Part shown: positions 27,306 through 34,009 of the stretch, one piece after another
Layout of the letters: every line of letters begins with the position of its first letter
Numbering within the stretch: the stretch's first letter is position 1
From: a virus
DNA: 37,791 bases
IMG/VR virus record: IMGVR_UViG_3300027733_000977
Coordinates: 1-37,791 of that record
Reading direction: 5' to 3' (one strand)
Made by a program: the position numbers and the translations under genes
Notes under the pieces: generated by a model
What the model was told of the DNA's origin: nothing
What the model saw: the letters and a program-made list of their open reading frames with translations, nothing else
Databases searched by the model: none

Positions 27306-27328
27306 CATTAATATGAATGGAGTTAACT

Positions 27329-28060
27329 ATGGCATTACCTAAATTATCAGTACCTCTTTTTGATGAAATTGTACCATCAACAAAGCAAGTAGTAAAATAC
27401 AGACCATTTCTTGTCAAAGAAGAAAAAATTCTTCTTATGGCTCATTCTGGTGGCACTCGCAAAGAAATGATTAATGCAATTAAACAAGTGATCAATAATT
27501 GTGTTGTCTTTGCTGATGGCAAAGAATTTGACATTGATGATATGGCTCTATTTGATCTAGAGTATCTGTTTATCAAGATTAGAGCAAAGTCTGTAGACAA
27601 CGTTGTAAAATTAAATTACATTGATCATGAAGACGAAAAGTCATATAGCTTTGATGTTAAGCTTGATGAAATTCAAATTCAATGGAATGAAAAGCATACT
27701 AACAAAATTAAAGTAAATGATGAAATTGGTATTATTATGAAATATCCTACTCCAGCAATTACAGAAAAATTGACAAATGGTGAAATTGAAAATATCAAGG
27801 ACGCAGAATTTTCACATCTTCTTATTAAAGAGTGTATTGAAAAGATTTACGACAAAGATCAGGTGTATCTTGCTAAGGAAGCTGATCCTAAAGAATTAGA
27901 CGAATTTATCGACTCGTTGACAGTTAAGGTGTTTGAAGACATTAAAACCTTTTTCGATACTTTACCAAAACTACATCACAAGATCGAATACACCAACTCA
28001 ATGGGGACAGCAAGAGAAATCGAACTGGCAACGTTAGACGATTTTTTTACATTGGACTAA
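27329..28060 (+). CDS. 26: Baseplate hub assembly protein gp26 (T4_baseplate family)
   Basis: The protein has 243 residues. It opens with MALPKLSVPLFDEIVPSTKQ and VKYRPFLVKEEKILLMA, the signature of the T4_baseplate (gp26) family; T4 gp26 has 208 residues. I use the ATG at 27329 because GGAG lies 6 bases before it; an upstream in-frame ATG at 27317 has no such site. The last codons are D-D-F-F-T-L-D and a stop, and the run of seven T inside this tail is the proposed frameshift site. gp26 is a hub assembly protein, and the next gene encodes the probable hub/tape-measure protein. Confidence 0.87.
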   Translation: MALPKLSVPLFDEIVPSTKQVVKYRPFLVKEEKILLMAHSGGTRKEMINAIKQVINNCVVFADGKEFDIDDMALFDLEYLFIKIRAKSVDNVVKLNYIDHEDEKSYSFDVKLDEIQIQWNEKHTNKIKVNDEIGIIMKYPTPAITEKLTNGEIENIKDAEFSHLLIKECIEKIYDKDQVYLAKEADPKELDEFIDSLTVKVFEDIKTFFDTLPKLHHKIEYTNSMGTAREIELATLDDFFTLD

Positions 28061-28138
28061 GTCACAATACATTAAGTAATTACTACGATACAATGTATTC
28101 AATGGTACAAAATTACCATTACACAGTGAGTGACTTAG
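28042..28138 (+). promoter_or_regulatory. Candidate -1 frameshift signal: T_TTT_TTT plus three-way-junction RNA
   Basis: The seven T at 28042-28048 sit in frame as T_TTT_TTT (codons GAT TTT TTT). After a spacer of 8 nt (28049-28056), CTAAGTCAC (28057-28065) pairs perfectly with GTGACTTAG (28130-28138). Inside this stem are two more perfect hairpins: AATACATT (28066-28073) with AATGTATT (28092-28099), and AATGGTA (28101-28107) with TACCATT (28114-28120). The layout and the 8-nt spacer suit -1 programmed frameshifting. The frame-0 stop lies within the first stem arm. Confidence 0.7.
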
Positions 28139-28227
28139 AGAATATGATACCGTTTGAGAGAGATATTTTTATAGGAATGATCAAGAACGATATAGAGAGT
28201 AACACAGAAAATGGCACTGGAAGTTAA
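28048..28227 (+). CDS. -1 frame extension of gp26 (59 residues, via frameshift)
   Basis: Slipping back one base at the T run leaves an open frame of 59 codons ending TAA at 28225-28227. It begins YIGLSHNTLSNYYDTMYSMV and continues QNYHYTVSDLENMIPFERDI, then FIGMI. The reading is protein-like: I recall short segments of the form LSHNSL...YY...M.QHHKYS..E.E.M.P.ER in T4-like phages of marine bacteria. An independent start at 28093 has no visible ribosome binding site. The full frameshift product would be 299 residues (240 + 59). It overlaps the next gene by 17 bases, so the two are probably coupled. Confidence 0.68.
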   Translation, partial: YIGLSHNTLSNYYDTMYSMVQNYHYTVSDLENMIPFERDIFIGMIKNDIESNTENGTGS

Positions 28228-30781
28228 AAACGTAAAAGCACTAGGCGGACCAGCTGAATTTCAGAAGATGGTCCAAAGCCTATTGGATAAACAGGCAGCT
28301 GCCGAAAATGCATCTAATACTGTTGATAAGAAAGTGTCCGATTCTTCTCAAGAAATAAAAGCTCTCTCTAAGAAAGTAGACAAAGTTTCTGATAAAGTAG
28401 ATAGAGTTTCTGCTACGCTATCCGTAACAGCAAGAAGAGTCGATGCTGCTGCTAAAGCAGCTATCGGTGCAGCAGACTCGGTTAAACTTGTTCGCAAGTC
28501 TGTTGATGCGTCTATAAAATCTACTACCGCTATTGAAAAATCCACTGGCAGTATTCTAAGCAAAATGTCAGGTATTGATAAATCAATCTCTTCTATTAAT
28601 CGTAATAAAGAAAAAGAAAACATCTCTCCAGTACAGAGAGGCGTAACGCAATTAACAAATCCTAGAGTAGACAATACAACTGCAATTTCAGAAGATGATA
28701 AAGATACAAAAGGTCCAAGCTTTGCAACTAAAGTAAAGAACTTCTTTGGTGGTAATACTATTATCATCAAAAAATTGAATGTTATTGATAACAAAATAAC
28801 AAGACTGAGTGAAAGCATTACTAGAATCATGGACAAAATGGGTCTAGATGCTAGAGAGAATGAGTTAGAAAAAATAAAAGGAATTTCTAGCGATAAAAAA
28901 GACACTGAAGATAAAAAAGAAAAAAACCCTTCTTGGTTGAAGTATCTATTACCATTTGCTATTCCTATGGTAATTGCCGCGGTGAAAGCCCTATTAAAAA
29001 ACGGCGGAGAAATTTTTAACTCTATTAAAGACGCCCTTGGTATGGGTACTGGTGGTATAGGTGGAGTAGTCTTAGGAACTTATCAAGCTGTAGTACGTAC
29101 AGGCAAAGAATTCGGACAAGGAATTAAAAATCTTGCTGAAGGTGGAAGCTGGAAAAAAGTACCAAAACCAGAAGACATGCCAACAAGAGATGGTAAAAAA
29201 TTAAGAATTGCTACCGAAGGTGAACTTGTAGATAAGAATGGAAAGGCACTTAAAGGCGGTGCTAAAACAATGCGCTTACAGGCACTCGGTGCGGTTGAAG
29301 CTACTTCTGCTGAAGGAAAAATATTAGCAAAAGAAACGAGTGCAGCAACAAAAATAATGCGCGGTGCTGGCAAAATTACTGGCAACGTTGCTAAAATAAG
29401 TGGAAAAGTACTTGGTATTCTTGCACGTTTAACCGGTCTAAGGACTGTACTAAAGTCTATTCCAGCATTAGCAACTTTGATTGCATTTATTGATCCACTA
29501 CTACTTCTTCTTAACAGCGGCGGACAACTAACTCCAGAAATAGTAAAATCATTTGGTAAAGCAATAGGTGGATTAGCAGGCGGCGCCTTAGGGTCGATGT
29601 TGGGTAGTGCTTTAGGTTCAATTATTCCTATTGCTGGAACACTTATTGGTGGTATTGCTGGATCATTCATGGGCGCAAAAGCAGGCGAATACATCGGCGA
29701 AAAAATTGCAGAATTGATGTTTGGGATAAAAACTCCTGCACAAGTCATGGCAGAAATAGCAGCAGATTCAATAAAAGCCGTAAAGAGTGCAGGAAATTCC
29801 ATACTGGGTGCTGTTATGCATCCAGTCGATACTGCAAAGGCCGCTGTGAGTGCAGTCAAGGGAGCAGCAAAAGCTGTAGGTGGATTCTTTAGTGGTGCAG
29901 GTGCAGCAGTATCAAAATGGTGGAGTGGAGGCAAAACTGAAAATAAAGGAGTTACGCCAGGATCTGCTAAACCGAAAACACCAGCAAAAGTTTCTGGTTT
30001 TGATGACGTTAAAGCAGCGATTAAAGCACATGAGGGTGAAGAATTAATACCGTATCAAGATGGTGGGGGTAAATGGACTGTAGGCGTAGGACATCTAATT
30101 GGCGATGGATCAGATACGGCGTTAGCAGCATCGGGATATCAAAAGCATGTAGCAATAACAAAAGAAAAATCTGACGCATTATTTGAAGAGGATTTTGCAA
30201 AACATGTCAAGATAGCACAAAATTCTCCTGGTTGGGACAAAGCAAACATGCAAGGTAAAGCTGCAATGATTGATATGACATATAATATGGGTGCATGGTG
30301 GACAAAGTTCACAGTCGCAGCAAAATTACTTGCTACAGGTAACTTTGCTGCCGCGGCCGAAAATCTTCGTGGGCAAAAAAAATGGAGAAGTCAAGTCGGT
30401 GGACGTGTCGATTGGGTTGCAGATAACATGGCCGCCGGCGGTGGAACAAATGCATCTCCTGATGCCCGTGCAAGTACTGTAAAAACGGCCTCTGTTTCCG
30501 GCGGTGGCACTGCATCTGCTGCAACACCTAAAGCTCCAGCTCCCAAAGCTCCAGGAGCTCCAGGAGCGGGCGGTGGACAACCTGCTGTAGCGTCTGCTAC
30601 ACAGTCTAACAAGTATCCAGCCCCAGCTGGAGCAGCGTCTGGAGCAGCTCCTCAGCAGCAAGCAAGTGCATCTACTAGATCAATTCCAAGTCCGACAGCA
30701 CCACACGCACAAGAAGATCACTATGCGGTACATTTTAATGCAGGTCAATCTGGTGGTGGTAACGTACCTTCATTTGTATAA
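28211..30781 (+). CDS. Coiled-coil tail/hub protein with T4-type lysozyme domain, tape-measure candidate
   Basis: The 856-residue protein has four parts. The first 200 residues are coiled coil (ALSKKVDKVSDKVDRVSATL). A hydrophobic helix lies at about 244-262 (YLLPFAIPMVIAAVKALL). A Gly/Ala zipper follows at about 445-505 (GGALGSMLGSALGSIIP). From about 595 to 740 is a lysozyme of T4 type: E608 in HEGEE, D617 in YQDGG and T623 in KWTVGVGH, with the same E-8-D-5-T spacing as T4 lysozyme. The C-terminal 110 residues are Ala/Pro/Gly-rich. Place after the gp26 frameshift pair and the size suit a tape measure or hub/lysozyme carrier, replacing the lysozyme missing from gp5. Confidence 0.82.
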   Translation: MALEVKNVKALGGPAEFQKMVQSLLDKQAAAENASNTVDKKVSDSSQEIKALSKKVDKVSDKVDRVSATLSVTARRVDAAAKAAIGAADSVKLVRKSVDASIKSTTAIEKSTGSILSKMSGIDKSISSINRNKEKENISPVQRGVTQLTNPRVDNTTAISEDDKDTKGPSFATKVKNFFGGNTIIIKKLNVIDNKITRLSESITRIMDKMGLDARENELEKIKGISSDKKDTEDKKEKNPSWLKYLLPFAIPMVIAAVKALLKNGGEIFNSIKDALGMGTGGIGGVVLGTYQAVVRTGKEFGQGIKNLAEGGSWKKVPKPEDMPTRDGKKLRIATEGELVDKNGKALKGGAKTMRLQALGAVEATSAEGKILAKETSAATKIMRGAGKITGNVAKISGKVLGILARLTGLRTVLKSIPALATLIAFIDPLLLLLNSGGQLTPEIVKSFGKAIGGLAGGALGSMLGSALGSIIPIAGTLIGGIAGSFMGAKAGEYIGEKIAELMFGIKTPAQVMAEIAADSIKAVKSAGNSILGAVMHPVDTAKAAVSAVKGAAKAVGGFFSGAGAAVSKWWSGGKTENKGVTPGSAKPKTPAKVSGFDDVKAAIKAHEGEELIPYQDGGGKWTVGVGHLIGDGSDTALAASGYQKHVAITKEKSDALFEEDFAKHVKIAQNSPGWDKANMQGKAAMIDMTYNMGAWWTKFTVAAKLLATGNFAAAAENLRGQKKWRSQVGGRVDWVADNMAAGGGTNASPDARASTVKTASVSGGGTASAATPKAPAPKAPGAPGAGGGQPAVASATQSNKYPAPAGAASGAAPQQQASASTRSIPSPTAPHAQEDHYAVHFNAGQSGGGNVPSFV

Positions 30782-33409: not shown

Positions 33410-33459
33410 GAGAAAACTCCTTTGCTTCTAGGTTAGCATGGCGTATAGTATTATGTAAA

Positions 33460-33748
33460 GATGGGGGGATTCTGTTGCCAAGTTCCCCCCGGGACTCCGA
33501 TTAGGCTGCTAGAGCCATATCATATGCTGAATTATCGTTAGCATTTACGTTTTGATCCTTTAGAAACGGTGGTATCTACCGTATTAATCTCCGTTACCCT
33601 CATCCCTATTGTCGAACCTGTTCGCCCCCATCATAAACACACTAACGCAAGATTGCATAATAACATTAGTGATGTTAGACTCAATGTGTTTATGGTGGAG
33701 GCGGCGGGAATCGCACCCGCGTCCAATACGAAACTACTGTAACATCAA
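33460..33748 (-). ncRNA. ssrA: Circularly permuted two-piece tmRNA
   Basis: Read on the minus strand, the 3' acceptor piece comes first (about 33748-33693), with T arm GCGGG/TGCGATT/CCCGC and 3' end CGCCTCC-A-CCA. A 63-nt spacer (33692-33630) follows, then the 5' piece from GGGGGCGAACAGGTTCGACA (33629) to about 33460. GGGGGCG pairs with CGCCTCC in seven pairs, with the third one a G-U, the G3:U70 identity of alanine tRNA and tmRNA. CAATA (33611-33607) pairs with TATTG (33728-33724) as P2. The tag frame at 33542-33501 reads ANDNSAYDMALAA then TAA. AACGG and CCGTT may form PK1; GGGGGG/CCCCCC at 33490-33463 closes the 3' end. Split ends are inferred by analogy with alphaproteobacterial tmRNA. 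Confidence 0.93.
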
Positions 33749-33751
33749 CGA

Positions 33752-34009
33752 TTAATTCTTTGGCGCGGACATCTTCTTCTTAGCGACCTTCTTCACTTTG
33801 TCAGTGACCTTGGCCTCAACGTCCTTGACCTTCTTTGCTACTTGAACAGCAGCAGCTTGAGCGTCAGCAGCATTGATCTTACCGTCCTTGTTTACGTCAA
33901 GAATCTTCTTAACGACTTCCTCTTCCTTCGATACCCAAGCACCGAAAGCTGGTAGACTAAAGTAAGCAACAACTGCAATAGCAACAATAACAACAATAAG
34001 TGTAAGCAT
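33752..34009 (-). CDS. Small membrane protein with EF-hand-like calcium loop
   Basis: The 85-residue protein has a membrane helix at about 3-20 (TLIVVIVAIAVVAYFSLP). D38-V-N40-K-D42-G43-K44-I45-N-A-A-D49 fits a 12-residue EF-hand/dockerin calcium loop (D-x-N-x-D-G-x-I-x3-D). The C-terminal half is Lys-rich (VAKKKMSAPKN). An AGGAG ribosome binding site precedes the ATG. A late promoter lies 40 bases upstream, and the tmRNA acceptor piece starts a few bases downstream. The function is not known; a role at the inner membrane during lysis is only a guess. Confidence 0.72.
   Translation of the reverse strand: MLTLIVVIVAIAVVAYFSLPAFGAWVSKEEEVVKKILDVNKDGKINAADAQAAAVQVAKKVKDVEAKVTDKVKKVAKKKMSAPKN

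Follow-up and report, generated by a model that had tools for sequence, protein, structure and literature searches.

A predicted programmed -1 frameshift in the gp26 tail assembly chaperone gene of a T4-like virus, with a downstream stem of constant position and changing partner

The stretch of DNA analysed here, called the window, is a 37,791-nt (37.8-kb) virus record of IMG/VR, IMGVR_UViG_3300027733_000977, taken over positions 1-37,791, and the subject of this study is a candidate -1 frameshift site near the end of its gp26 gene. All features are located on the + strand except where stated. The gp26 gene (27329-28060) encodes a protein of 243 amino acids which matches PF12322 (T4_baseplate/gp26, E 6.6e-55) and phrog_150 (E 5.3e-59), and which is identified below as a short tail assembly chaperone (TAC-N). 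Its ATG at 27329 is preceded by GGAG at 27319-27322, and an in-frame alternative ATG is present at 27317. The ATG behind GGAG is most likely the start and gives 243 amino acids for gp26 and 299 for the frameshifted product; with this start, the 299-residue figure of a preliminary description of this DNA is right.

The slippery heptamer T_TTT_TTT is found in the gp26 frame at 28042-28048, where the reading is GAT TTT TTT ACA TTG GAC TAA, and the 0-frame stop TAA (28058-28060), which ends the short form, lies 9 nt past the heptamer. A spacer of 8 nt (28049-28056) is followed by the 5' arm of stem A (CUAAGUCAC, 28057-28065), which pairs with a 3' arm at 28130-28138 (GUGACUUAG), and two further stems lie between these arms, stem B with 8 bp (28066-28073 with 28092-28099) and stem C with 7 bp (28101-28107 with 28114-28120). 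The -1 frame is open from 28048 to 28227, with 59 codons and a stop at 28225-28227. It matches phrog_634 (E 5.9e-18) and forms the gp51-like C-terminal part of the putative long form of the chaperone (TAC-NC, 299 amino acids). The same segment also matches columns 230-281 of phrog_150, the last columns of the gp26 family (E 1.2e-5), which suggests that some phrog_150 proteins are already gp26-gp51 fusions. The earliest ATG of the -1 frame, at 28093, is not preceded by a Shine-Dalgarno sequence. The preliminary description had named the in-frame heptamer, the 8-nt spacer, three perfect stems of 9, 8 and 7 bp and a 59-codon -1 frame without a ribosome binding site of its own, and each of these was confirmed. 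A Shine-Dalgarno-like stimulator upstream of the heptamer is absent from the window.

The heptamer alone was rejected as an argument for frameshifting because runs of seven T are not rare in this AT-rich window, where 15 were observed and 17.6 are expected. What lies beyond chance is the conserved frame and position of the T run, the protein encoded in the -1 frame and the stem downstream. These were examined in 168 sequences, of which 112 are non-redundant; the set was built from 160 IMG/VR loci and the window, to which cultured phages were added before near-duplicates were removed. Throughout the 168 the gp51-like segment lies in the -1 frame, immediately past an in-frame T_TTT_TT(T/C). Both parts are present in 158 sequences among the IMG/VR loci and the window, and in each of these 158 the frame of the gp51 part is -1 with respect to gp26. 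An in-frame heptamer of the X_XXY_YYZ kind was observed in all 112 non-redundant sequences (T_TTT_TTT in 100 and T_TTT_TTC in 12), always 0-9 nt before the gp26 stop. As examples, this arrangement is found in P-SSM2 (Prochlorococcus), HTVC008M (Pelagibacter), phiM12 (Sinorhizobium), Cr30 (Caulobacter), nt-1 (Vibrio) and S-CAM4 (Synechococcus) and, by inspection, in PhiW-14, Ah1, Mendera and F86. The site of Rhizobium P10VF is T_TTT_TTG. In the Ackermannviridae phages phiEa2809 (L174) and Kuja (L177) the heptamer is non-standard, with CAG ATT TTC ATT TAA and AAC CTT TTT CAA TAA at the respective gp26 stops; the -1 arrangement is kept and the slippery site may differ.

The codon ahead of the two phenylalanine codons is variable in identity (GAT, AGT, AAT, TCT and GCT, for Asp, Ser, Asn and Ala) and always ends in T. 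Codons ending in C do occur at other places in the same genes. Past the site, purifying selection was observed in the -1 frame only, with ratios of nonsynonymous to synonymous polymorphism (pN/pS) of 0.34 over codons 5-17 and 0.28 over codons 18-39, whereas the other frames give 1.12 and 1.91, and this stretch is therefore translated. A stop in the -1 frame stands immediately upstream of the heptamer in 40 of the 112 sequences, and 81 of the 112 contain no ATG, GTG or TTG where the open -1 frame precedes the site, nor within its first 10 codons. With so few starts and with coding selection in that frame, the -1 stretch is reachable only by frameshifting in most relatives. A segment that was not conserved in the -1 frame, or that formed a separate gene with its own start, had been named in advance as evidence against frameshifting. 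Instead, the -1 frame was found conserved in every homologue that has both parts, and it does not form a gene of its own with a separate start.

The identity of gp26 as the short form of a tail assembly chaperone is given by its AlphaFold2 model (predicted local distance difference test score, pLDDT, 91), in which residues 1-89 superpose on the HK97 chaperone 2ob9 with Z 8.2 and a root-mean-square deviation of 3.8 over 87 residues (target 107), the next entry being at Z 2.2. Foldseek alone was weak (E 0.6-0.7), and a sequence search of the PDB returned nothing meaningful. When aligned to a profile of the gp26-gp51 fusion, T4 gp26 extends as far as the FF junction and T4 gp51 covers nearly the whole profile, across the junction; no other reading frame in the tested regions of T4 or the window aligns to it like these two. 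These alignments identify T4 gp26 as the equivalent of the short form, and T4 gp51 as that of the long form in a free-standing gene. The fold match to HK97, the T4 alignments and the neighbouring tape measure candidate are the reasons for taking gp26 as the short form and the frameshift product as the long form. The frameshift site implies that the two forms share their N-terminus, and T4 gp26 and gp51 are a natural pair of short and long forms. The analogy with tail chaperones drawn in the preliminary description is thus supported by both the fold and the T4 proteins.

From what the comparison provides (a conserved site and frame, coding selection, a stem, a chaperone fold and natural single-protein equivalents in T4) we infer that slippage occurs and which partners each form has. 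Most ribosomes would reach the stop at 28058 and release the 243-residue short form. A minority would slip back by one base on U_UUU_UUU, where both phenylalanine tRNAs can re-pair on UUU, and the RNA stem that starts 8 nt downstream would assist this slippage through strain. The slipped ribosomes would then read the -1 frame to 28225 and add a 59-residue domain, giving the 299-residue long form with the gp51 domain at its end. Lambda gpG and gpGT, taken as the model, predict that both forms coat the tape measure protein, the product of the next gene, and that tail tube subunits are recruited through the C-terminal domain of the long form. Programmed -1 frameshifting in gp26 that makes a second, longer chaperone form is very probably the correct reading, and in this respect the comparison with relatives supports what had been proposed.

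The downstream RNA was examined both in the window and across the relatives. The minimum free energy fold of 28042-28160 (-21.8 kcal/mol, z -2.2 against dinucleotide shuffles) holds all three perfect stems, and the junction alone has -16.1 kcal/mol (z -2.6 against the same kind of shuffles). Among the relatives, the 85 nt past the site have a mean z of -2.2 against shuffles, and control stretches within these genes one of -0.4 (Mann-Whitney p 8e-22). Against synonymous recodings, in which the protein is kept and the codons are resampled, the mean z is -3.0 and that of the window -3.2. A scan of all 5' arms showed that the excess over such recodings peaks sharply at 7-8 nt after the heptamer, within the 5-9 nt where a stimulator is looked for. 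The constraints of the protein sequence fall far short of explaining the enrichment of a stimulatory stem at this distance.

The partner of this arm is variable. The largest group has the arm GCUGAGYCA, which forms a 9-bp stem with UGGCUCAGC at 61-69 nt from the heptamer start; part of the marine group has an arm that is often CCUUUC, with GAAAGG near 119 as its partner, and the partner is found at 88-96 in the window and near 48-60 in a few others. This grouping by 3' arm is descriptive only. In the main clade 87.6% of the cells of the 9-bp stem are paired, with slid registers reaching at most 37%, and 16 cells are changed on both sides in a compensatory manner; none of 500 shuffles reached the covariation score observed. 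Pairing in this stem comes largely from the conservation of its columns, as shuffles already give 85.3%, and the test against synonymous recodings is therefore given more weight than the pairing score.

The three-stem stimulator of the preliminary description stands in part: the fold is present and the position of its 5' arm is kept across relatives, whereas the 3' arm position of stem A is used only by the window and its nearest relative, L082, the other relatives having different 3' partners. Stems B and C are likewise perfect only in these two. As a family-wide structure the three-way junction was rejected beyond L082 after tests on 70 and 106 sequences, and the three helices showed no covariation excess over the 70. 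A branched structure conserved by covariation in its family, of the IS911 type, is therefore not what is found here. In our reading, selection keeps a stem at the proper distance and lets its partner drift, and the partner shift in the lineage of the window enclosed two more hairpins and so formed the three-way junction. We consider it somewhat likely that the stimulator of T4-like tail chaperones is defined by position, with a 5' arm fixed at 7-8 nt and a 3' arm that has moved (its end lying about 48-60, 69, 96 or 119 nt from the start of the heptamer) and in one lineage has become part of a three-way junction, and that T4 lost the signal once the long form became a separate gene. A stimulator with a constant position and a moving partner is the least expected part of the finding, and no description of the downstream stem was found in the literature searched.

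Several observations weigh against programmed frameshifting assisted by this stem. Many records call gp51 a separate gene and some relatives have an ATG near the junction; the exact three-way junction is conserved no further than L082; about a third of the relatives are without a strong simple stem at the expected place; and RNAalifold returned no consensus structure on the mixed set of 70 sequences, because a minority of them breaks the main stem. The annotations bear on an alternative in which gp51 is a small gene of its own, translated from a separate start (ATG 28093) or by ribosomes that reinitiate past the gp26 stop. Several records do annotate it as its own coding sequence (CDS) just past gp26, and in nt-1 and P-SSM2 an ATG overlaps the gp26 stop or lies just after it. 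However, in most relatives every start lies downstream of the conserved YIGLSHxxLxxYY block, on which purifying selection acts, the gp51 start positions are scattered with no Shine-Dalgarno sequence before ATG 28093, and T4 gp51 runs through the junction as one protein. A separate gene would also leave the invariant in-frame heptamer unexplained, and we regard this explanation as very unlikely.

Transcriptional slippage, where the RNA polymerase adds or drops a U so that some mRNAs encode the fusion in frame, would be suited to the runs of at least seven T seen in most relatives, with up to nine in some, and poly-U runs have been discussed as slippage-prone (PMC4066793). It is nevertheless unlikely, since in twelve non-redundant relatives only six T stand before a C, so that the heptamer rule is kept as T_TTT_TTC rather than the length of the run; the stem held 7-8 nt downstream is also typical of ribosomal stimulators. 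An indel from sequencing or assembly that splits a truly continuous gene might be suspected, since homopolymers are error-prone and T4 gp51 is continuous, but the same split occurs in 112 non-redundant sequences, complete cultured phages included, with a conserved stop and with the T_TTT_TTC variants, and a separate IMG/VR record (L081) is identical over the region. The probability left to such an error is negligible and it is refuted in practice. Programmed ribosomal frameshifting is the reading retained in what follows.

Tail assembly chaperone frameshifts in lambda G/GT and other tailed phages are said to have been described by Levin in 1993 and Xu in 2004. Vladimirov, Gautam and Davidson reportedly identified the chaperones of T4-like phages in 2022, under a title that proposes a mechanism other than frameshifting. 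For the tail chaperones of tailed phages, frameshifting is a classical mechanism, and T4 is listed as the exception in a major review (PMC5009743). The preliminary description named no T4-like equivalent for gp26 and regarded one as a valuable find. The idea that none has been described is wrong, as PMC12846349 cites Vladimirov et al. 2022 as the source for poly-T frameshift signals in T4-like TAC-N genes. PRFect cites the same work for some T4-like phages without frameshifting. On the statement in PMC12846349, this kind of frameshift is already known in T4-like phages and the window adds another case.

The ratio of the two forms in lambda is about 30:1; there the tape measure is coated by the short form, and the long form recruits the tail tube protein with its T domain (PMC5009743). 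The window resembles lambda G/GT in having short and long forms with a common N-terminus and in the chaperone fold (HK97 gp13-like). It differs in its site, U_UUU_UUU rather than that of lambda, in its strong positional downstream stem and in its larger N-terminal protein of 243 amino acids, which continues past the HK97-like domain with a further C-terminal part. In the comparison with T4, homology links T4 gp26 with the short form and T4 gp51 with the long form over its whole length; in T4 the two forms come from two divergent genes, which lie in opposite orientation, whereas in the window both would come from one gene by the predicted frameshift. The chaperone of the Vandenendeviridae and Andersonviridae (PMC12846349) is alike in its poly-T site, the -1 direction and the gene position, with a GTTTTT motif and in phage families different from that of the window. 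A three-way junction is part of the -1 frameshift signal of IS911 (Rettberg 1999, cited in PMC4066793 and PMC5009743), where a branched three-stem stimulator past the slippery site is comparable in outline to that of the window (PMC5009743). IS911 is unrelated, with another slippery site, a Shine-Dalgarno-like upstream stimulator and a transposase gene.

The frameshift arrangement is kept in much of the wider T4-like world, including cyanophages, pelagiphages, rhizobial, Caulobacter, Vibrio and Stenotrophomonas phages and uncultured freshwater phages. The two-gene solution of T4 therefore looks derived, and the single-gene arrangement is probably ancestral. In many records 'gp26' and 'gp51' should be merged into a single gene by a ribosomal slippage join, which is probably needed in L161-L178 and other database records of this pair, and both proteins are better named tail assembly chaperones than baseplate hub proteins. 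With its relocating stem partner, this group also offers a natural series in which the requirements of a frameshift stimulator can be studied.

The annotation of gp51 was observed to be inconsistent: it is given as its own CDS with a chance start in P-SSM2, S-SRM01 and phiM12 and is absent in S-CAM4 and Ah1. Some marine, cyanophage and Caulobacter relatives (L163, L164, L168 and L179) have a Shine-Dalgarno-like GGAGG about 10 nt upstream of the heptamer, in a dnaX-like manner. In the marine and cyanophage group, where the GGAGG-like sequence lies 8-10 nt upstream, a match of at least 5 nt occurs in 40%, against a synonymous expectation of 21%, which is a modest excess.

The gene that follows gp26 (28211-30781) overlaps the -1 frame by 17 nt and is a candidate tape measure gene. 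It is long, with an N-terminal coiled coil, a hydrophobic stretch and a phage lysozyme domain (PF00959, E 6e-12; phrog_7), and so fits the coiled-coil and lysozyme candidate that had been noted just after gp26. The position of gp26 directly ahead of this probable tape measure gene agrees with that of a tail assembly chaperone; in Cr30 and HTVC008M the annotated tape measure sits one small gene further downstream. Further along, a permuted (two-piece) transfer-messenger RNA (tmRNA) gene of the alphaproteobacterial kind is located on the - strand at 33410-33785, with the tag ANDNSAYDMALAA. It was detected by ARAGORN and was the sole match in an Rfam scan of the window at gathering scores (RF04321, 115 bits; RF01849, 96 bits). 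Its presence points to a host among the Alphaproteobacteria and to a ribosome-rescue RNA carried by the phage.
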